From: Acidimicrobiaceae bacterium
GTDB taxonomy: Bacteria > Actinomycetota > Acidimicrobiia > Acidimicrobiales > Bog-793
Assembly (NCBI GenBank): GCA_003140595.1
Contig: PLKG01000138.1
Span: 1-58,055, forward strand
Direction of reading: 5' to 3'
DNA length: 58,055 bases
The position numbers and the translations under genes were made by a program. This document shows positions 3,433-15,120 of this stretch, piece by piece (within the stretch, counting starts at the first letter, position 1; each line of letters begins with the position of its first letter). The notes beneath the pieces were generated by a model, which had not been told where the DNA came from, searched no databases, and saw only the letters and a list, made by a program, of their open reading frames with translations.

Positions 3433-4062
3433 TCACATAGCGCTTACTGGCGGCGGAAGGTTGGCGATGCGGCTGGCTAGGTTCACGGCATGGTCGCCCA
3501 AGCGCTCGTAGAACCGGGCAAGAAGGGTGACCTGTGCGGCTACCACGGTCGGCATCTCCCCACGAGCTACTTCTGCGGTGAGTCGCTCGTGAAGGATGTC
3601 GATCTCCTCGTCCTCCTCGTCTAGTTTGATCACTTGGGGCACGACGGCGCTGAACGCGTCTGCGGCCGCCTTCCACATCTCGAGGGCGACCTCTGTCATG
3701 CGCTGAACAATTCCGCGACTGAGGGGGCTCATCTCCGCGCCGAGGTTGAACACCGCGCGCTGGGCTACGTGCTCGGCGAGATCGGCGCTGCGCTCCAGTT
3801 CCGGCAGGATCAGCAGAATGCCGATCAGCCTGCGAAGCCGGTCACCGGTCGGCAACTCGGTCTCGATCTGATCCCAGACGGTCTGTTCGACCTCGGACGT
3901 GAGCGCGTCGATCAACTGGTCCCCCTCGATCACAGCGATGCCGACTGCGATCTCCCCGCGAAGCAAAGCCTGCGTCGCGCCGGCGAGGGCTTCGGTCACG
4001 AGAGCGAACAGCTGACCGACGCGGCGGTCGACCGGAGACCCTTCAAACGGCACTTGCATCAT
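3433..4062 (-). CDS. phoU: PhoU-like phosphate signalling regulator
   Basis: Two PhoU-type helical repeats (ELERSADLAEHVAQRA, FYERLGDHAVNLASRI); start likely ATGATG at 4062. Confidence 0.85.
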   Translation of the reverse strand: MMQVPFEGSPVDRRVGQLFALVTEALAGATQALLRGEIAVGIAVIEGDQLIDALTSEVEQTVWDQIETELPTGDRLRRLIGILLILPELERSADLAEHVAQRAVFNLGAEMSPLSRGIVQRMTEVALEMWKAAADAFSAVVPQVIKLDEEDEEIDILHERLTAEVARGEMPTVVAAQVTLLARFYERLGDHAVNLASRIANLPPPVSAM

Positions 4063-4102
4063 GAAGGAACCATAACCAAGTAGCACCTGGAATTACCACC
4101 TT

Positions 4103-4124
4103 GTTCATCTTGTGTTCATTCACA
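4103..4124 (+). promoter_or_regulatory. PHO-box-like direct repeat between phoU and the phosphate permease
   Basis: GTTCATCTTGT-GTTCATTCACA, two adjacent 11-bp GTTCA-type units. Confidence 0.65.
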
Positions 4125-4241
4125 TGTCGGTTGGAAGTCATCTATGCCGGCAAGAGTGTCTTAGACATGAATTTTCCGCGCGCGCGGAACCAGAGTTCCG
4201 CCGGATCGAGAGTCGACGTGTTGTTTGGCCAGGCTGAGAGC

Positions 4242-5708
4242 GTGAAGCAAGAGCCCACCGTCGTCACGGTAAGCGACCTCCTCAATGAGGCGCCGAGAAG
4301 CAAGTTCCACCGCCGGGCTGTACTCATCTCGGGCGTGGGCTTCTTCACTGATGCGTATGACCTGTTCGTCATCGGCACGGTTGCCGCCATCGTGACTACC
4401 CAGTGGCACCTGAGCACCACCAAAACCAGCTGGGTGACCGGCGCCGCCCTTCTGGGCGCTGTCATCGGAGCCTTCGTATTCGGACGGATTGCGGACGTTC
4501 TTGGCCGCAAGAGCGTCTACGTCCTAGTGGCGGCCATCATGATCGTCGGTGCGCTGGCCTCCGCGTTTTCCCCGAGTTTCGTATGGCTCGTCATGTCACG
4601 TTTCGTGCTGGGACTTGGCATCGGCGGCGACTATCCGGTCTCCGCCGTTCTCATGAGCGAGTACTCCAATCGGCGCGACCGAGGGAGGCTCGTCGGCATG
4701 GTCTTCTCGATGCAAGCACTCGGGCTCATCGTTGGTCCACTTGTCGGATTGGCGCTGCTGTCATCAGGAATTGGGCAAGCTCTCAGCTGGAGGCTGCTGC
4801 TCGGTCTCGGCGCGGTTCCGGCGGCCGGAGTCGTGTACCTCCGCTCAAAGGTGCCTGAATCGCCGAGATTCCAAGCGCGCGTGCAAGGGGAGGGTAAACG
4901 CGCCGCCCGTGAAGCGGCCGTGTTCTCCGAAGGTGTTCTCGACACCTCTGAGGTGTCCGCCGAAGACACGAGGCGGATGGGCCTCCGTGAGTTCCTGACA
5001 AATCCCCGGATGCTGCTCCTCCTCGTAGCCACCGCTGGAAGCTGGTTCCTGTTCGACTACGCCTACTACGGGAACACGTTGTCACTGCCGGCCATCCTGA
5101 AAGGTGTCGATGCCCACGCGACGCTCGAGGCGAAGCTGGCATGGACCCTTGCGATCTTCGCGGTATTCGCAGTACCCGGTTACGCCCTGGCCGTCCTGCG
5201 CATGGACAGGATCGGCCACAAGAGGCTGCAACTCATCGGGTTCTCCGTCATGGCTGTTGCCTTCATAGCCCTCGGCGCGATTCCCCGGCTGACTTCGACT
5301 GTCGTGCCCTTTCTGCTGGTCTTCGGGCTGAGCTACTTCTTTGTGGAGTTCGGGCCGAACACCACGACATTCGTCCTGCCGTCGGAAGTGTTCCCGGTGA
5401 GCATGCGAACAACCGGGCACGGTATCGCCGCTGGTGTCGGCAAGTTCGGTGCATTCATTGGGGTCTTCCTGGTTCCACAGCTGCAGCGGCACATCGGGCT
5501 GCGCGGCATGCTTCTCGTGGCGGCCTGCGCGTCCGTACTCGGGTTCTCGTTGAGCCTGGTGCTACCCGAGCCCGCACGCCGAACCCTCGAGGACGTTTCC
5601 GGCGAGGACGACGAGGCACGGCTGAGGATGGTCAGCAGCGTTGCGCTACTGCCTTCGGTTACTCTCCCGTCTTCAGAGGACATCCTCCTCGAGGCAGATA
5701 TCGGCTAG
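4242..5708 (+). CDS. MFS inorganic phosphate permease (PHS family); start 4167 or 4242, not 4101
   Basis: GFFTDAYDLFVIG, GGDYPVSAVLMSEY, PESPRF motifs; the ORF-track start (TTG 4101) lies at the PHO-box-like repeat. Confidence 0.85.
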   Translation: MKQEPTVVTVSDLLNEAPRSKFHRRAVLISGVGFFTDAYDLFVIGTVAAIVTTQWHLSTTKTSWVTGAALLGAVIGAFVFGRIADVLGRKSVYVLVAAIMIVGALASAFSPSFVWLVMSRFVLGLGIGGDYPVSAVLMSEYSNRRDRGRLVGMVFSMQALGLIVGPLVGLALLSSGIGQALSWRLLLGLGAVPAAGVVYLRSKVPESPRFQARVQGEGKRAAREAAVFSEGVLDTSEVSAEDTRRMGLREFLTNPRMLLLLVATAGSWFLFDYAYYGNTLSLPAILKGVDAHATLEAKLAWTLAIFAVFAVPGYALAVLRMDRIGHKRLQLIGFSVMAVAFIALGAIPRLTSTVVPFLLVFGLSYFFVEFGPNTTTFVLPSEVFPVSMRTTGHGIAAGVGKFGAFIGVFLVPQLQRHIGLRGMLLVAACASVLGFSLSLVLPEPARRTLEDVSGEDDEARLRMVSSVALLPSVTLPSSEDILLEADIG

Positions 5709-7032: not shown

Positions 7033-7083
7033 TCCTCGGATGTGCCCGGTGACCGAGGTGGCGCGTGGTGGGGCTGGGACGCC

Positions 7084-10000
7084 TCAGATCTCGATGGCGT
7101 CGAGGTAGGTGACTTTCGCGCCGAGGTTGCCCGCTCTGACAACGGTGTGCTCTTCGAACTCGGCGACCAGGATCCGATAGGGGACGGTGCCACGCGCCTT
7201 GGGGAGCGTCACCGTGCCCTTCCAGACGGTGGTGGCCTCGCTCGAGCTCGCAACGGAGAGGACCGTGCCATCGGGCTGGGTCGGATCGATGATCCACTGC
7301 AAGTCCGGGTCGCTCGTCTCCACGGCCTTTACCTGCAGGTAAGCCCGCATCGTGTCGGGCGTGGCCCTGTTCGCCGTCGCGAGGTAGCCGGGGCCCAGCA
7401 CTTCGACATTGACCTTGGTGCCGGAAGGATAAGTCAGGCCCATCGACCGGTTCGGGGTGAGCTGGATGAAGTCGGCCTGCACGACACGCGAGAGCTCGAT
7501 GCCTGGCAGTGAGGCGGGCTGGTAGCGAACCAGCGCCAGCTTGACGAAGGGGAAATACGACTGCCCTGCCCCGATGGAGATGTCCGCGAACCACAGGCGC
7601 CGGGTCTTGTCCCAGTTGACCTCGTGGCCGGCGACGTCGACCCAGCCGATACTGGAGGTCTGCTCCTCGAGCTGGAGCGAGATCCCCTTGTGCACCGCGA
7701 GCGGGAAGTCCGTCACCTTCGCGGTTGCGACCGAGCCGGTCGTGAACACCGGGTCCGAGCCGAAGCCGCTCACGAACGGCTGCAGGCCCGACGGCAGTGC
7801 GGCACCGATCGGCGGCTTGGCCACAACCACCCCGAGCAGCTCGCCGATCCCGGACTCGAACCACGGGCGCCCGAGATACACCCGAAGCACGTTGCCGACC
7901 CGGCTGGAGCTCGGTGTCGCCGACTTCACGGTCACCCAGTTCCATGCCGGGATCATGTAGCGCAGGTCCGGGGCAGGTGGCCGGGCAGTGCTCGGGATCG
8001 ACAAGAGGTAACCGAACTTCGTCGGTGGTTTCGCGTCCTTCTCGAGGCTCGAGCGGGTCACGGGAGGAGCCACGAACTGCACCTCCACCGAGCCGCCCTC
8101 GGGGATCGAGCCGCCCCGGATACGAGCGATCGAGCCCGCCTTGTCGTCCTCGGTGAAGTCCACGCCGGACCGGTAGATCGTCGCAGTATCGCCAGCCGCG
8201 CGGACGTCAACGGTGCCGGGCGCGAAGCCCGCCTTCGAGCAGACGACCGCCACGGTGCCAGTGAGCCTCTCGGTGACGACCTCGGTGAAGTACTCGAGAA
8301 ACCGCGTCGTCGCTACGGCGTTGTAGAAAACCTCGTGATGCTGGGTGTCGCCGAAGTCGTGACGGATCTTGTAGAACGGGAGGAGGTCACTTTGGCCGAG
8401 AGCCAAGGGGATCTCGTCAACGCGTGAGGTCTTCTCGAGCAGCACGGTGCCCTGAGGGCTCTTGCCGTCGTCGTAGGGATCCGCCCAGGCAGCGAGCACA
8501 TCGACGCGGATCGTGCTCTGAACATGAGCCAGGGCGTCGCCGATCAAGAGCGCGTAGGTCGCGCCGGGCGATCGAAGGACGGTGAGCTTCGCGATTGCGG
8601 GCGGCGTCAAAGGCTGGCGGACGGCATGGACGATCACGAGCTCGCGATAGGGCGTGAACATGTAGTGGAGCCTGTCGAGGATCAACGCCCTGAGTGCGGG
8701 TGTCGCGGTACCTGCTTCGGCGAGCCACTGCCACAACGCCATCACTTCGAGGTCGCCCGGCGCGAAGTACGAGCTCATCAGCACGGCCGTGATGGACGCC
8801 TTCGGCGCCTTCACCTCGATCGCACCATCGAGGTCTCCCGATCCGGGGAGGACGACGGGGCTCTTTCCGGCACGGACGACAAGACGGACGGCGCGGCGCT
8901 CCGGCCAGGTGCCGACCGAGTCGAACGGCACCCGCACGAAGGCGCCCTTCTTGCCGGGCAAGTTGAGCAGGGCCACGCCTTTCGCGAGCACGTCCGGCAG
9001 GTAGGGCACACCGAAGGCCGGGTGTGCGGCCGTGGGCGCCGCTACGGGCGGGTAGTAGATCCAATCGTTCTTCCCGTTGAGGGGCTGGTTGTCGATCATG
9101 CCTCCGTACAGGTCGCGAACCAACCTCGACTTGTAGGTGAGGCCATCCCGATCGGCTATCAGGGTGTAACTGGAGCGATCCGGATGACCGTCGGCACCGT
9201 CGAGGACGCCGTGGGTCTCCGCCATGTCCTCACCGGTGGACGGCGGCGCGATGTGGCGCTCGCACGCGACAATGCTCGGGTCGTCGTCGGGGATGTCGTA
9301 GTTCGAGCGGATGACCAGGTGCTCGACGTGCTCACCCGGCGTCCTGGGCGCGGTCGGGACCAACACCGGTGAGGGCACGGGCTCGAACCGGCGGTAGGTC
9401 ACCTCCGGTGTCGCCCAGGTGAATCCACCGGTCTTGGTGAACGGGATGCTGTTGCCGGCAATGTCGACCGCCCGCGCCCGGAACCGGTAGGTACCACCGA
9501 AGCGGAGCGTCGGCAGAGTGCCCGGGGTGGCCGCGTAGTCGATCTGGAGCTGAAGGTTGCTGTTGGCCGGGTTCGCGACATCGGGCTCGAGCCCGTCCGA
9601 AGGCACGTCCGACAGGTGTTTTCCGGGACGGGCGCCGACAAGGCTCCACCCTGACCAGCGCATCAGGTACTCCGGCAGGTACACCGGCGGGTTGGGGGCT
9701 CCGCCCGAACTGGCACTCTGGGTCGTCGCGGGCTCGACCCAACCCTCGTCGCCGCTCGGAACCGGCACGACCGTCGGCGGCGATCCGATCCCGTAGCCGC
9801 CAAGCCCCGGGTTCTCGGCCCCGGTCCGGGCGCAGAGCTGGAACCACCGGCCCCTAGCCTTTGACCACACATCGACCCGGTAGCCCTGTGCGATGTCCTC
9901 GAAGTAGAGCGTGACAGCTCCTGGCGGGGACGCCTCGACCGCGGCGTTGAAACCGTTGTTGTTCTGCCAGTTCTGGTACAGCGAGAGGGCGCGGCCGGTC

Positions 10001-11067
10001 TTGGCCACCGCGAGGCCCGCCGAGCGGAGCGACGGAACGCCGTAGTGGGTGGGCGTGTCCGCCGTGACCATCTCGGTGTTGGCGCGTTGGATGCCCTGGA
10101 CGAAGTTGAAGGCTTTCAGCGTCGCCCCGTCCAGGTCCATCTCGACAACGTCGTAGTCCGCGGCGGAGAGGCGAAAGAACCCCGAGGTGATCGCCGGATC
10201 CGAAGTCCTCTGGGCCGGGATCCACTCGCCCGCGTTCGTCATGGTCACCGGCTTGACGTTGATCGTCAGCGGCGGACCGCCCAACTTCGGTCTCCAGCTC
10301 GGCAGCACCGAGACCGCGACGGTGCCTTTGAGCCCGTTCGGGCGCGTGAGCTCGAGCTCGTAGACCAGCCCGAAGAGGCGGAGCAGGGCAGGGTGACGCC
10401 CGAGCAGTGAGACGGCCTGGTGGAAGTCGAACTGTGGGACCGCAGGCGGCGGAGTGGTGCTGTAGCTCTGGCCCTTCACGGGTGTCGTGAGCGGTTGCAG
10501 GAACAGGTACGCCTGAGTGAGGTCCGACCCCGGGTCCGGTCCCTTCCCTGGTGGGATCGGGCCGCCCCCCTTCGGGAACATCGCTTTCACGGTCTCGATC
10601 CGGTCGTAGAGCTCCCGGCTGTCGAGCGGCAGGGCACCGAAACCGCCCTCACTCGTGAGGAGCTGGAAACTGGGCCAGTTGCCGACGGGCGCCGTGTTCG
10701 CGAGTGCCGCATAGGTGCTCTGGAAGAAGTGGCGCACGAACCCGGCAGGGTAGCTGTAGAGCGGAGAGGCGGTCGGACTCGAGTACTCGTAGGGTTCGAC
10801 AGTGGTCGACGCGGGGAACAGGGCGTGCCAGAGCGACGACGATGGCGGCGCGCTCACGATGTCGGCGTCGAAGGTCCTGGACCCGATCTTGAGCTTGAAC
10901 CTGACGTTTGTCGCCGGCCAGTACTGCCAGTCGGAGAACTCCGCCAGCGACGACACCGCGTTGCCGTTCGGGAAGAGCTGAGGCGCGACGTGCACCGAGA
11001 CCCGTAGCCTGCCGTCCTTCGCCTTCCCGTGCGGGCAGGCCGTCCAGAGCACCCGTTGCTTTGTCAT
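7084..11067 (-). CDS. very large (1327 aa) protein of unknown function
   Basis: Single uninterrupted ORF; overlaps the upstream gene by ATGA; Fn3-like strand motif TYRFRARAVDIAGN. Confidence 0.9.
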   Translation of the reverse strand: MTKQRVLWTACPHGKAKDGRLRVSVHVAPQLFPNGNAVSSLAEFSDWQYWPATNVRFKLKIGSRTFDADIVSAPPSSSLWHALFPASTTVEPYEYSSPTASPLYSYPAGFVRHFFQSTYAALANTAPVGNWPSFQLLTSEGGFGALPLDSRELYDRIETVKAMFPKGGGPIPPGKGPDPGSDLTQAYLFLQPLTTPVKGQSYSTTPPPAVPQFDFHQAVSLLGRHPALLRLFGLVYELELTRPNGLKGTVAVSVLPSWRPKLGGPPLTINVKPVTMTNAGEWIPAQRTSDPAITSGFFRLSAADYDVVEMDLDGATLKAFNFVQGIQRANTEMVTADTPTHYGVPSLRSAGLAVAKTGRALSLYQNWQNNNGFNAAVEASPPGAVTLYFEDIAQGYRVDVWSKARGRWFQLCARTGAENPGLGGYGIGSPPTVVPVPSGDEGWVEPATTQSASSGGAPNPPVYLPEYLMRWSGWSLVGARPGKHLSDVPSDGLEPDVANPANSNLQLQIDYAATPGTLPTLRFGGTYRFRARAVDIAGNSIPFTKTGGFTWATPEVTYRRFEPVPSPVLVPTAPRTPGEHVEHLVIRSNYDIPDDDPSIVACERHIAPPSTGEDMAETHGVLDGADGHPDRSSYTLIADRDGLTYKSRLVRDLYGGMIDNQPLNGKNDWIYYPPVAAPTAAHPAFGVPYLPDVLAKGVALLNLPGKKGAFVRVPFDSVGTWPERRAVRLVVRAGKSPVVLPGSGDLDGAIEVKAPKASITAVLMSSYFAPGDLEVMALWQWLAEAGTATPALRALILDRLHYMFTPYRELVIVHAVRQPLTPPAIAKLTVLRSPGATYALLIGDALAHVQSTIRVDVLAAWADPYDDGKSPQGTVLLEKTSRVDEIPLALGQSDLLPFYKIRHDFGDTQHHEVFYNAVATTRFLEYFTEVVTERLTGTVAVVCSKAGFAPGTVDVRAAGDTATIYRSGVDFTEDDKAGSIARIRGGSIPEGGSVEVQFVAPPVTRSSLEKDAKPPTKFGYLLSIPSTARPPAPDLRYMIPAWNWVTVKSATPSSSRVGNVLRVYLGRPWFESGIGELLGVVVAKPPIGAALPSGLQPFVSGFGSDPVFTTGSVATAKVTDFPLAVHKGISLQLEEQTSSIGWVDVAGHEVNWDKTRRLWFADISIGAGQSYFPFVKLALVRYQPASLPGIELSRVVQADFIQLTPNRSMGLTYPSGTKVNVEVLGPGYLATANRATPDTMRAYLQVKAVETSDPDLQWIIDPTQPDGTVLSVASSSEATTVWKGTVTLPKARGTVPYRILVAEFEEHTVVRAGNLGAKVTYLDAIEI

Positions 11068-14000
11068 GCGAAGGCCTCGCAGTAGGTCGTCCAGTTCTTC
11101 TCGGTGAGGGCTTGCTTGAAGCTCGGGTCACCACTGCCGCCGATCGTCTTCTGCATGGTGACGCTGACCGAGACGCTGACGAACAGCACGCTCACCGAGA
11201 CCGAGACGCTCGCCGTGCCGTAGGCCTTGCCGGGGTCGAGATAAGTGAGGCCGAGGTAGAACTCCATCGAGATCGAGATGATCCCGAGCACCGAGAGGTT
11301 GCCGTCGGCGCGGAGGAAACCGGTGAGCTGGACCTGCTTGTTCGGCACGGTCTGGAGCGAGAAGTAGATGCCGGCCATTATCGAGACGCCACCGCTAGCG
11401 ACGCCGAGATCGATGGAAAGGTCGGCGCCGAATTCGAGCGAGACCTCGATCAGCTCGATGCCGTCCGCCCCTATCCCGAGTGAGAAGAAACCACCCCCAC
11501 CGAACAGGTCGATCGTGAGGATGAACGGGTTGTCCCTTGACGAGAGGCCGAAACGGACCCGCACCGGCGTCCCGTCGAAGGGGATGTTGACCCCGGCGGA
11601 AAGGGCGAGGTTCTGGAGCGTGAACACGCCGACACCGACGTCGGGGAGGGCGAGGGAGTAGCTTGCCTCGATCCCGCCGTCGGTGACCGAGATCGACGGC
11701 CCGCCGAGCGAGCTCAACAGGTCTTCGAACGCGTTGATGAACCTGAGGGGACCGAGGAACGTTACCGAGTCGATGTCCGGCTGGATCGAGGTCTTCGCCC
11801 CGGTCTTCGAGTCGAAGGTGAACGAGTTGAACTTGATCCCGATGTACTGGTCGCCTTCGCCGAAAAGGAGCAGCTCGAAATTTGTGAGGTCTCCGTGAAT
11901 CGAGTACGTCGTCTGGCTCGGGTTGGCGATCGGCGTGTAGATCTCGGCGTGGATGGTGAGGGCAGCGTCGTCGTCGGGCTGGAAGAAACCGAGCGAGTCC
12001 TTCTGCACCACCGGGAGCCAGTCGATCTTGACGTCGAGAGCGGTCGGAGGCTTGGTGTCGTCGTTGCCCGGGTAGATGAACTTGTCGGAGATCTGCGGGG
12101 CTTGCGCGTTGCTGGCCGTCTCACTCGGGTCGATCGGCTTGATGATCTCCGCCACAGGTATGGCACCGAGGAGCTTGCCGGCGTCACCCGAGAGCATGTT
12201 GAAGTACTTCGTCGGGTCGAACTTCCCACCGATCAGGTCGCCCAGGTCACCGCCTACCGGACCGAGGTCGCGGGCAATTCCGCTCACGTTGAAGTTGGGC
12301 GTGGCCATTCCGCCGACGAGGTTCGGGGGAAACGAGAGCCCGGGCGCGTTCTGCGTCACGGTCAGATAAACCTCGGTCACACCTGTCTCGAATCCCTTGT
12401 CGAGGTAGTTCGAGGAGATCGACACGCTCGGGCTCGGAAGCGGTGTCGATCCGGCGCCAACGACCTGCTCTGCCCCGGGCAGATGGACCGCAGCGGAGTC
12501 GAGCGCCGGATAGACATTGGCCCTGCCGTTGTTGGCGACAAAGGCCGCGAGGCCGTAGGTGTTGACGTGCTGGGCCGTCGCTCCCGGTGGCGCGGCGACG
12601 GTCTCGGCGAAGGCGAAGAGCGACCCGCCGAACGACGGCGATCTCCGGCTCGGGTCGGCCGCGGCGTAGGCGTCAACGACCTTCTGAAGATTGCCCGGGT
12701 CCTGCGCGAACGTGGACGACACCCAGATGACTCCGGTGCTGAAGTCCACCTTCCTTCCTTCCGCATCGGTGCCGACGAAGGAGAACGGGACGTCTTCAAG
12801 GCCGCTTCTCACCCACAAGACGTCGTCGGTTTCAGCAGTAAAGGAACCGACGCTGATGCCTGGGTCGACCGAGTTGTCGAAGTCGATCGGCGGTGTCGTC
12901 ACCGTTTTCACGAGAAGGCTCCGTATCGGGTTGCCCCTCCCGTCGTACGGCTCGTCAAGATCGCCGGCGTAGGTGATCTGCGGCTCCTTCACGGCGATGT
13001 ACTGCTTCTGCACGAGGTAGGCGACCGCCTCGCCGTTCGAGTTGACCTGGATCTCCCGGTCCGAGATCGTGATCCGGCTGGCCCGGTTGCCCCATGGGAA
13101 CAGGTAGCCGATGTTGACGACACGGACGTAGCTGTCCCGCCCGATCGATGCCCGGTGCCACCACGAGGCAGTGTCGACGGGTGTGTTGGGACCCGGGACC
13201 CACGAGCCCTGGATGTTGACCGACGCCCCCAGTGTCGAGAGCAGGAGCAGGTCGACGTCGATCGTCGCGTCGCCGGGGGATGTGCCTGTGGTCAGGGCCA
13301 CGATGTCGACGCGGTCCCCCGGCGTAAGCGACATGAGCCACGGGTCGGTAGGAGCCGGTGCGAAGGCGGCAGGGTAACCAGGGGCCCAGAAAGCCTTGAG
13401 GCGCGGAGAGACCACGGGCGGCTCGAAGGCGCCGACTCCTAGGCGGGTATGCCAGAGTTCAGTGATCTGCTTGAAGACAACTGGTCTCGTCGAGTGGTGC
13501 CAGGTGCCGTGTTCGAGGGGCGTGAGCCAGAGCTGCCAGGGGATCTCGAGCGCGGTGTGGAGCGGATCGGGCGGGGCCGGTGCACCCGAGCTGGAGGTCG
13601 CGACGGGGACGAGTGCGGGTTCGGTCCCCGACCAGTCCAGCAGCCCCGCGATCGTGTAAGGAACCTTCGCCGTCCCAGCAAGCTCGAAGGCGAGCCAACT
13701 GAAACCGGCAAGGGCGCCCCTCATCGGCTTGGTCGGCCAGGTGACCGAACCAGGCGTGTAGGCAACGCACTCCTCGCCGAGGTGCTGGGAGGGGAACAGG
13801 ACGACCATGTGCATCGGCAGCTTGGGGTCCTCGGCAATGATCTCGGTCTGTCCGGCGGTGACGACCGCCTTGGCGTTGTAGAACTCGAAGCCCAGGTAGA
13901 CCATGTCCGTCGTCCGGATGGCTTGGAACACGAGGCTCGGCTTGGCTGTTCCGCCGAGTGCGGCGCGCAACGCCTCCGGCAGCGATTGGCCATAGGAATG

Positions 14001-14228
14001 GTACGACCGCATCGAGACGAGCGGGTACTTCGAGGAGGGAGCCGACCGCGCCAGCATCCGTGGGCTCATGACAGCGCCAGCGGCAGCCCCGCCGATCAGC
14101 TTGATCGCCGAGCGCCGATCCATCTCGTTCCGGGGCCTGCTCACCGTCTCGCCGCGCCTCCCAAGGCAAGGGCTCCTTTCGAGAGCCCCCACCGAGTCGA
14201 GTTTGCCGAGAGATGCGTCCGGCGTCAA
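11064..14228 (-). CDS. large beta-rich protein of unknown function with predicted Tat signal (true start likely at MDRRSAIKL)
   Basis: MDRRSAIKLIGGAAAGAV twin-arginine signal; long glycine-rich beta-repeat C-terminus. Confidence 0.9.
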   Translation of the reverse strand: MTPDASLGKLDSVGALERSPCLGRRGETVSRPRNEMDRRSAIKLIGGAAAGAVMSPRMLARSAPSSKYPLVSMRSYHSYGQSLPEALRAALGGTAKPSLVFQAIRTTDMVYLGFEFYNAKAVVTAGQTEIIAEDPKLPMHMVVLFPSQHLGEECVAYTPGSVTWPTKPMRGALAGFSWLAFELAGTAKVPYTIAGLLDWSGTEPALVPVATSSSGAPAPPDPLHTALEIPWQLWLTPLEHGTWHHSTRPVVFKQITELWHTRLGVGAFEPPVVSPRLKAFWAPGYPAAFAPAPTDPWLMSLTPGDRVDIVALTTGTSPGDATIDVDLLLLSTLGASVNIQGSWVPGPNTPVDTASWWHRASIGRDSYVRVVNIGYLFPWGNRASRITISDREIQVNSNGEAVAYLVQKQYIAVKEPQITYAGDLDEPYDGRGNPIRSLLVKTVTTPPIDFDNSVDPGISVGSFTAETDDVLWVRSGLEDVPFSFVGTDAEGRKVDFSTGVIWVSSTFAQDPGNLQKVVDAYAAADPSRRSPSFGGSLFAFAETVAAPPGATAQHVNTYGLAAFVANNGRANVYPALDSAAVHLPGAEQVVGAGSTPLPSPSVSISSNYLDKGFETGVTEVYLTVTQNAPGLSFPPNLVGGMATPNFNVSGIARDLGPVGGDLGDLIGGKFDPTKYFNMLSGDAGKLLGAIPVAEIIKPIDPSETASNAQAPQISDKFIYPGNDDTKPPTALDVKIDWLPVVQKDSLGFFQPDDDAALTIHAEIYTPIANPSQTTYSIHGDLTNFELLLFGEGDQYIGIKFNSFTFDSKTGAKTSIQPDIDSVTFLGPLRFINAFEDLLSSLGGPSISVTDGGIEASYSLALPDVGVGVFTLQNLALSAGVNIPFDGTPVRVRFGLSSRDNPFILTIDLFGGGGFFSLGIGADGIELIEVSLEFGADLSIDLGVASGGVSIMAGIYFSLQTVPNKQVQLTGFLRADGNLSVLGIISISMEFYLGLTYLDPGKAYGTASVSVSVSVLFVSVSVSVTMQKTIGGSGDPSFKQALTEKNWTTYCEAFA

Positions 14229-15120
14229 GGAACCCCGAGACCGGCTGTTCTAGTGCGCCGAAGGCTCCCCTCTGGCGACACTCTGGCGCCAGGACGACTC
14301 GGAGCTGCCGCTGGCTCAACTTTTGCGTGTGGTTTCCATGCCGCTCGATGAACCTCACCGGCTGGGCTGCTTCGCGGCCGATCCCGGGAGACACGAGCTC
14401 GTCAGGGCCCTCGCGACGATCGGGCGGGACAACGATCCGGCCGACGTGGCGCCCGTGCCCGACAATGCCCACCGGGGCGGTTCACCTCTCAGGCGCAACC
14501 GCTCCCGCGCTGCGCGGCGGTTGTGCACCACGCCGGCGACGGCACCAAGTCGCCGTCCTGTCGCACGGACACCCGTCCGTCGTGCTGCCTCAGAGCGCCA
14601 CAACTTCACAACGCCAATCGGCTCGCCGAGGCCGGCATCGCACCGACGCTGATGTGGGGCGCGAGATGAATGCTTTCGCGGTACGACCCTCGCTTTGCTC
14701 GGTCGCCAGGTTGACAGCTACCGTCGACGGGCGCGGCGGCTCGCTGTCGAGATTGCCGCAATCCCATCGCCCGACGGTCGCTGCGCGCCACAGCGAGCGG
14801 TTCGGCTTGGCCGCTGCAGGGGGCCGGGTTGCCGAGCCGCGACCCAGTTGAGCCTCAGCGCATTAGGGGTTCAGCCGCACCGGGCCGGACATGAGGCCAC
14901 TGCTCCCTCATGGCACAGCTCTTCTGGTCGCTTCCGCTTTCACCGGGAGTCAACACGGCCCCGGGGCTTGGCCCGGGGCCGGGGGGGAGCTTCACGGTCA
15001 CGCCGGAAGGACATGCTCTCCAAGTCCCAGTCAACAACTCTGCCATCTGTCTGTCAACAGCCCGGCGCCGAAGTCGCGAGCTGTCCTGGGTCACTGCGCG
15101 CCGGTCCTGCACCGAATATC

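Follow-up and report, generated by a model that had tools for sequence, protein, structure and literature searches.

An apparently undescribed pair of giant proteins encoded together in at least a dozen phyla, with a predicted Tat signal on one partner

What are the two giant genes that fill positions 7084-14228 of an Acidimicrobiaceae contig, and do their products work together? The window analysed here is the whole stretch of 58,055 nucleotides; reading of its open reading frames (ORFs) places two minus-strand ORFs in this interval, an upstream one encoding the protein called UP here and a downstream one encoding DN. The initial annotation described two minus-strand genes sharing an ATGA, and the overlap is indeed seen at 11064-11067, with DN of the claimed size (1327 aa, 7084-11067). 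The 1054 aa given there for UP are obtained only by counting from a far-upstream TTG, but the start is more likely ATG 14123 or GTG 14144 in the same frame, which gives 1019-1026 aa. The Tat peptide MDRRSAIKLIGGAAAGAV begins at ATG 14123 (1019 aa), and similarity to the congener G003 reaches slightly upstream of that codon. The features are as follows.

11064..14123, minus strand: UP gene, predicted Tat-signal protein of 1019 aa and 107.9 kDa; alternative in-frame GTG start at 14144
7084..11067, minus strand: DN gene, 1327 aa and 142.9 kDa, without signal peptide, predicted chain of Ig/Fn3-like beta domains
11064..11067, minus strand: ATGA overlap, start codon of DN and stop codon of UP
14049..14123, minus strand: predicted Tat signal peptide region of UP, MDRRSAIKLIGGAAAGAVMSPRMLA, kept in the congener; UP residues 1-57 have pLDDT below about 50
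12024..13946, minus strand: beta-rich N-terminal two thirds of UP, residues 60-700, from alignment and structure model
11142..11699, minus strand: predicted C-terminal amphipathic beta sheet of UP, residues 809-994, the most constrained part of the pair
11026..11055, minus strand: N-terminal motif of DN, RVLWTACPHG; family consensus QTxxWTxLPNG
9451..9492, minus strand: Ig/Fn3-like strand of DN, TYRFRARAVDIAGN, residues 526-539; family hallmark PGSLPxLRFGxxYRxRxRxVDLAGNS
7070..14234, minus strand: block common to the window and congener G003 as one unit, with different flanks in G003

Comparison with the congener gives dN/dS values of 0.20 for DN and, within UP, 0.22 for the N-terminal and 0.11 for the C-terminal part (290 residues, 96% identical); UP and DN are therefore real, constrained genes. 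Each is present in the window genome as a single copy, and sequence comparison reveals no relationship between the two proteins. Between residues 60 and 700 UP has a set of near-invariant polar residues (R70, D73, Q113, E117, E193, W224, R329, R356 and D453), and the Fn3-like strand claimed for DN, TYRFRARAVDIAGN, proves to be among the most conserved spots of its family. The glycine-rich beta-type repeats that the initial annotation saw in UP are not borne out: there are no sequence repeats, and the segment is a conserved series of strands in which hydrophobic and polar residues alternate.

The initial annotation had named as its test for a system that homologues should regularly be found as a coupled pair, and this is what we found. 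A scan seeded with the C-terminal domain of UP, with one genome per species (the A1 profile was too diverged), returned at least 194 relatives, of which 80 from 13 named phyla were fetched. In all 78 of these loci with enough downstream sequence, DN lies directly downstream of UP on the same strand (76 recognised by profile, L078 by a partial match and L032 by reading of the frame). In 398 evenly sampled genomes of the window's phylum, DN occurs in 12 and UP in 13; the 12 are the same genomes, and in each the two genes are adjacent. The thirteenth UP genome, G188, has a weak C-terminal UP match only and holds a remote relative of the pair, described below. Searches seeded with DN agree: among 99 related genomes the three others with DN all have UP, and UP is present in 10/10 plasmid records with DN. 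The gap between the genes has a median of about 21 nt and is at most 50 nt in 71 of 86 cases, where start codons were picked by rule, so that single gaps are approximate; for the window the start picked is later than that in the ATGA. Loci that seemed to have one gene only were explained by gene-calling errors in GC-rich DNA or by the end of a contig, and two apparent UP-DN fusions (L061 and L071) by long spurious upstream frames. Homologues occurring alone, or folds from well-known unrelated families, were what the initial annotation had set against a system; co-occurrence is essentially complete, and no known family or fold emerged.

The two proteins also share their history. Distances in the UP and DN trees correlate with r = 0.90 over 55 pairs, a value that also includes shared species history, and the best of 2000 label shuffles reaches 0.13. 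The tree contains cross-phylum placements, with Nitrospira beside Caballeronia and a Bradyrhizobiaceae bin among Ignavibacteria, which suggests that the two genes have moved together. The block shared with the congener spans window positions 14234 to 7070, little more than the two genes, and has different flanks there; a block of an MFS transporter and PhoU (window 3433-5708, compared with contig C325 of G003) lies on the opposite side of the giant pair. The pair is sparse, being found in about 3% of the sampled species of the window's phylum. As far as genome comparison can tell, the two genes are paired in a fixed order and coupled, they co-evolve and move as a block, and a signal is carried by one partner only; the pair is kept together in at least a dozen phyla. 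Two loci are worth recording separately. On an Agrobacterium vitis plasmid (L021:19400-24938) DN is split into two annotated genes of 1262 and 592 aa, just downstream of which lie dpdE/dpdF of 7-deazaguanine DNA modification. A contig of 1.6 kb assigned by binning to a Methanosarcinales archaeon (L043) also carries a UP homologue; at that size contamination is possible.

The initial annotation could assign neither protein to an enzyme, transporter or secretion family, and the library and fold searches, which gave no convincing match, leave that judgement standing. Neither UP nor DN scored above the curated cut-off of any model in Pfam, NCBIfam, PHROGs or PADLOC, the last including its anti-phage defence models, and neither matched a solved chain in the PDB by sequence profile. 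Pfam found no SpvB, TcdB or RHS repeat domains in the two window proteins or in their homologues. The two protein families thus have no relatives in the libraries searched, and no description of the pair was found in a literature search that reached few subscription papers. The weak matches that did appear raise the idea that the pair is left over from a phage virion or a contractile-particle module: 4 of 11 DNs match a phage tail tube model weakly (best E 9e-4), the only weak match that recurred, and there is a weak match to tail fibre J (E 0.03). The tail tube score of the window DN is, however, 13.1 bits against a cut-off of 60 bits; UP is unmatched in 50,697 phage records, IMG/VR holds one relative, no phage genes surround the loci, and a search of viral folds (BFVD) returned nothing convincing. 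A phage origin is largely refuted by these results, and we consider it highly improbable.

Structure prediction indicates what kind of proteins these are. An AlphaFold2 model of UP from a 61-sequence alignment has a mean pLDDT of 81, and one of a 1200-residue stretch of the Nonomuraea DN, used as the window DN is over the length limit, has a mean pLDDT of 89 (65-sequence alignment). These models show DN as a string of Ig/Fn3-like beta domains, and UP as all-beta with its first 57 residues disordered, as expected of a signal and linker. Across the 61 sequences, residues 809-994 of UP form a succession of long strands that are hydrophobic on one face and polar on the other; on the Kyte-Doolittle scale the strands from residue 714 on average +2.2 on the hydrophobic face versus -0.9 on the other, and the N-terminal strands +1.2 versus -0.4. 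Foldseek relates UP generically to outer-membrane barrels and lipid-transfer proteins with TM-scores of at most 0.34. Since Gram-positives have the pair as well, UP is unlikely to be a plain outer-membrane barrel, and its hydrophobic sheet may be nothing more than a buried core. For DN, Foldseek returns generic Ig chains only (mastigoneme, insulin receptor, alpha-2-macroglobulin and complement), with TM-scores of about 0.1 by query length. A peptidoglycan-binding domain, PG_binding_1, is present in 5 of the 31 DNs tested; in the Streptomyces DNs that carry it, the pair is without Tat signal. Together with the predicted Ig-chain fold, these inserts support an extracellular location for DN.

The amphipathic sheet also invites a reading as an antagonistic or host-directed system that forms pores or seizes lipids, in which the UP sheet would enter a foreign membrane and DN would be the binding arm. 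The sparse presence of the pair, the cross-phylum tree placements, the variable N-terminal modules and the generic Foldseek matches of UP would all suit such a system. Against it, no immunity gene or toxin domain is near or fused to the pair in the loci examined, both proteins are conserved over their full length including the termini, unlike polymorphic toxins, and the TM-scores of those Foldseek matches are low; we think this reading improbable.

Genomic neighbours give no function, because none is conserved beyond close clades. No common third gene stands beside the pair in the UP-seeded loci, and the neighbours shared within clades include a LytTR regulator, a DNA-alkylation repair protein, an RCC1 protein, an MMR GTPase and others. 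In Streptomyces (L052:6459-7544, also L086 and L098) the gene of a 362-aa protein without Pfam match precedes the pair by 27-163 nt; this protein has an SxxK-like motif (SASLLK) of the kind seen in serine beta-lactamase-like proteins.

The Tat signal claimed for the upstream product consists of a twin-arginine motif followed by a hydrophobic stretch, MDRRSAIKLIGGAAAGAV, and is kept in the congener. A Tat-like N-terminus is present in about 45 of the 80 UPs (about 55%), a count made up of 40 found by a simple rule and five found by eye (L034, L060, L065, L070 and L079), from which one false call (L023) is subtracted; of shuffled N-termini, 2% pass the rule. None of 75 DNs has a genuine Tat signal, the single call, in L025, lying upstream of the true start, which upholds the claim that DN has no recognisable signal peptide. 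The DN consensus QTxxWTxLPNG lies so close to the start codon, a few residues away at most, that a signal would have no room. DN is equally signal-less in lineages where UP has none.

The cytoplasmic chaperones of the TorD and HybE type release a partner protein to the Tat system and remain inside the cell. DN might likewise be a folding partner or proofreading chaperone that encloses UP, hands it over to Tat and remains in the cytoplasm, and the facts that it never has a signal and is translated right after UP would agree with this. DN is, however, larger than its supposed client, it is equally conserved where UP lacks a Tat signal, and a predicted chain of Ig domains that in some members includes PG_binding_1 suits a protein on the outside; we judge a chaperone role unlikely. 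The initial annotation had predicted opposite locations for the two proteins. The lack of a signal on DN holds, but it points to hitchhiking on UP more than to a separate location, since DN is signal-less also where UP is and some DNs have peptidoglycan-binding domains.

About 45% of UPs have no Tat signal, including those of Streptomyces, Arthrobacter, Burkholderiales, Neobacillus and others. Some of these have distinctive ends: in Streptomyces pairs (L052, L063, L069, L086 and L098) the N-terminus of UP and the C-terminus of DN carry tails rich in Gly and His, and the UPs of Caballeronia and Nitrospira (L047 and L051) begin with a proline-rich stretch of the PPYPPFPPY type. A second two-gene family, remote from the first and alike in gene order and size, is found in G188 (L109) and on plasmids of Tistrella, Microvirga and Chlorohelix. 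Its pairs are located as follows.

L109:1455-10295, second-family pair in G188
L113:7285-15657, second-family pair
L114:6850-15582, second-family pair
L115:7169-15633, second-family pair

The downstream protein of this family matches DN around the Ig hallmark, where 151 profile columns align with a probability of 96.8%. Its upstream protein has a short stretch similar to UP with a non-significant profile probability of 1%, so that the comparison is only suggestive of a relationship. No Tat signal was found in the three plasmid members. Tat export is therefore not universal, since this family and about 45% of UPs lack the signal, and members without it must leave by another route or act inside the cell. 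One may go further and suppose that both proteins are intracellular in most lineages and perform the same basic job in either compartment, the twin-arginine motif being a lineage-specific addition. The signal-less clades and the second family would agree with this, as would the UP tree, which needs only about five changes of Tat state. Yet the signal is present in 36 of the 61 tree rows and across many phyla, DN has peptidoglycan-binding inserts, and the Gly/His- and Pro-rich tails of members without Tat signal resemble surface sequences; we accordingly give this reading little weight.

A much larger version of the pair is on plasmid pC of Sinorhizobium meliloti LMB1, a conjugative plasmid, with proteins of 3052 and 1766 aa (331 and 192 kDa, 523 kDa together). 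Directly after it (L019:24646-24813) is encoded a TatA of 55 aa (WLIVLAIVVLLFGRGRISGLMGDLG), and a TatA beside the pair was found in no other of the loci. The plasmid TatA is possibly a private Tat component of the giant pair, and we take it as a pointer rather than proof.

We propose that translational coupling would bring UP and DN together in one place, where they would fold and assemble in the cytoplasm as an obligate heteromeric complex; where UP has the twin-arginine signal, the complex would leave through Tat, UP taking DN along. Once exported, it may form a large all-beta assembly at the cell surface with a binding or structural role, to which DN would contribute a rod of Ig/Fn3-like domains, and the hydrophobic face of the UP sheet might hold a lipid-like ligand, dock on a membrane or pack against DN. 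The physical UP-DN complex and the hitchhiking of DN on UP are inferred; the surface role, the ligand and the use of the hydrophobic sheet are largely guessed. The size of the cargo argues against Tat export: at 1:1 stoichiometry the window complex would have 251 kDa and that of S. meliloti 523 kDa, and both exceed the 135-kDa PaoABC. On balance we give an obligate, Tat-exported heteromer at the cell surface, with DN hitchhiking on UP, an even chance. The dedicated two-component surface or assembly system first suggested for this locus is supported by the pairing, the mirror trees and the lack of a known family, but the surface itself is a deduction. More doubtful, though conceivable, is the fuller claim of a two-protein surface machine unrelated to others, spread as a two-gene block, with a second family that does without Tat and the largest Tat cargo so far proposed, of about 250 kDa in most lineages and more than 500 kDa in rhizobia with a private TatA. 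If the proposal is true, an undescribed obligate pair from at least a dozen phyla comes with a direct experimental handle, and the limit that Tat sets on the size of folded complexes could also be tested, with the 250- and 523-kDa pairs as natural cargoes.

Three known systems come closest. With bacterial alpha-2-macroglobulins and other Ig-chain surface proteins DN shares a long chain of predicted Ig/Fn3-like domains, and Foldseek lists weak matches to the E. coli and Salmonella proteins; DN differs in having no profile match to the A2M or MG domains, and a TM-score of about 0.1 means that the match reflects the Ig fold only. Two-partner secretion, as in FhaB/FhaC, likewise involves a pair of large exported proteins that are rich in beta structure and have adjacent genes, and FhaC is weakly listed for UP by Foldseek. 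In contrast to that system, UP and DN have no Pfam match to an Omp85/POTRA partner of the TpsB type or to a TPS-domain cargo and no Sec signal, the pair also occurs in Gram-positives, and the TM-score is too low. There is also a likeness to the Tat hitchhikers, subunits without a signal that cross the membrane on a partner that has one, HybC on HybO and PaoB/PaoC on PaoA (PMC4273604); PaoABC, at 135 kDa, has been called one of the largest Tat exports (PMC4273604). As in E. coli hydrogenase-2 (HybOC) and the aldehyde oxidoreductase PaoABC, the twin-arginine signal is on one subunit only, the gene of the signal-less partner is adjacent and co-translated, and the partners are inseparable in genomes. 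The difference is that HybOC and PaoABC are cofactor-loaded redox enzymes, whereas UP and DN are predicted to be all-beta and match no cofactor-binding family; as a mode of export, a non-redox and very large Tat hitchhiker would be new.
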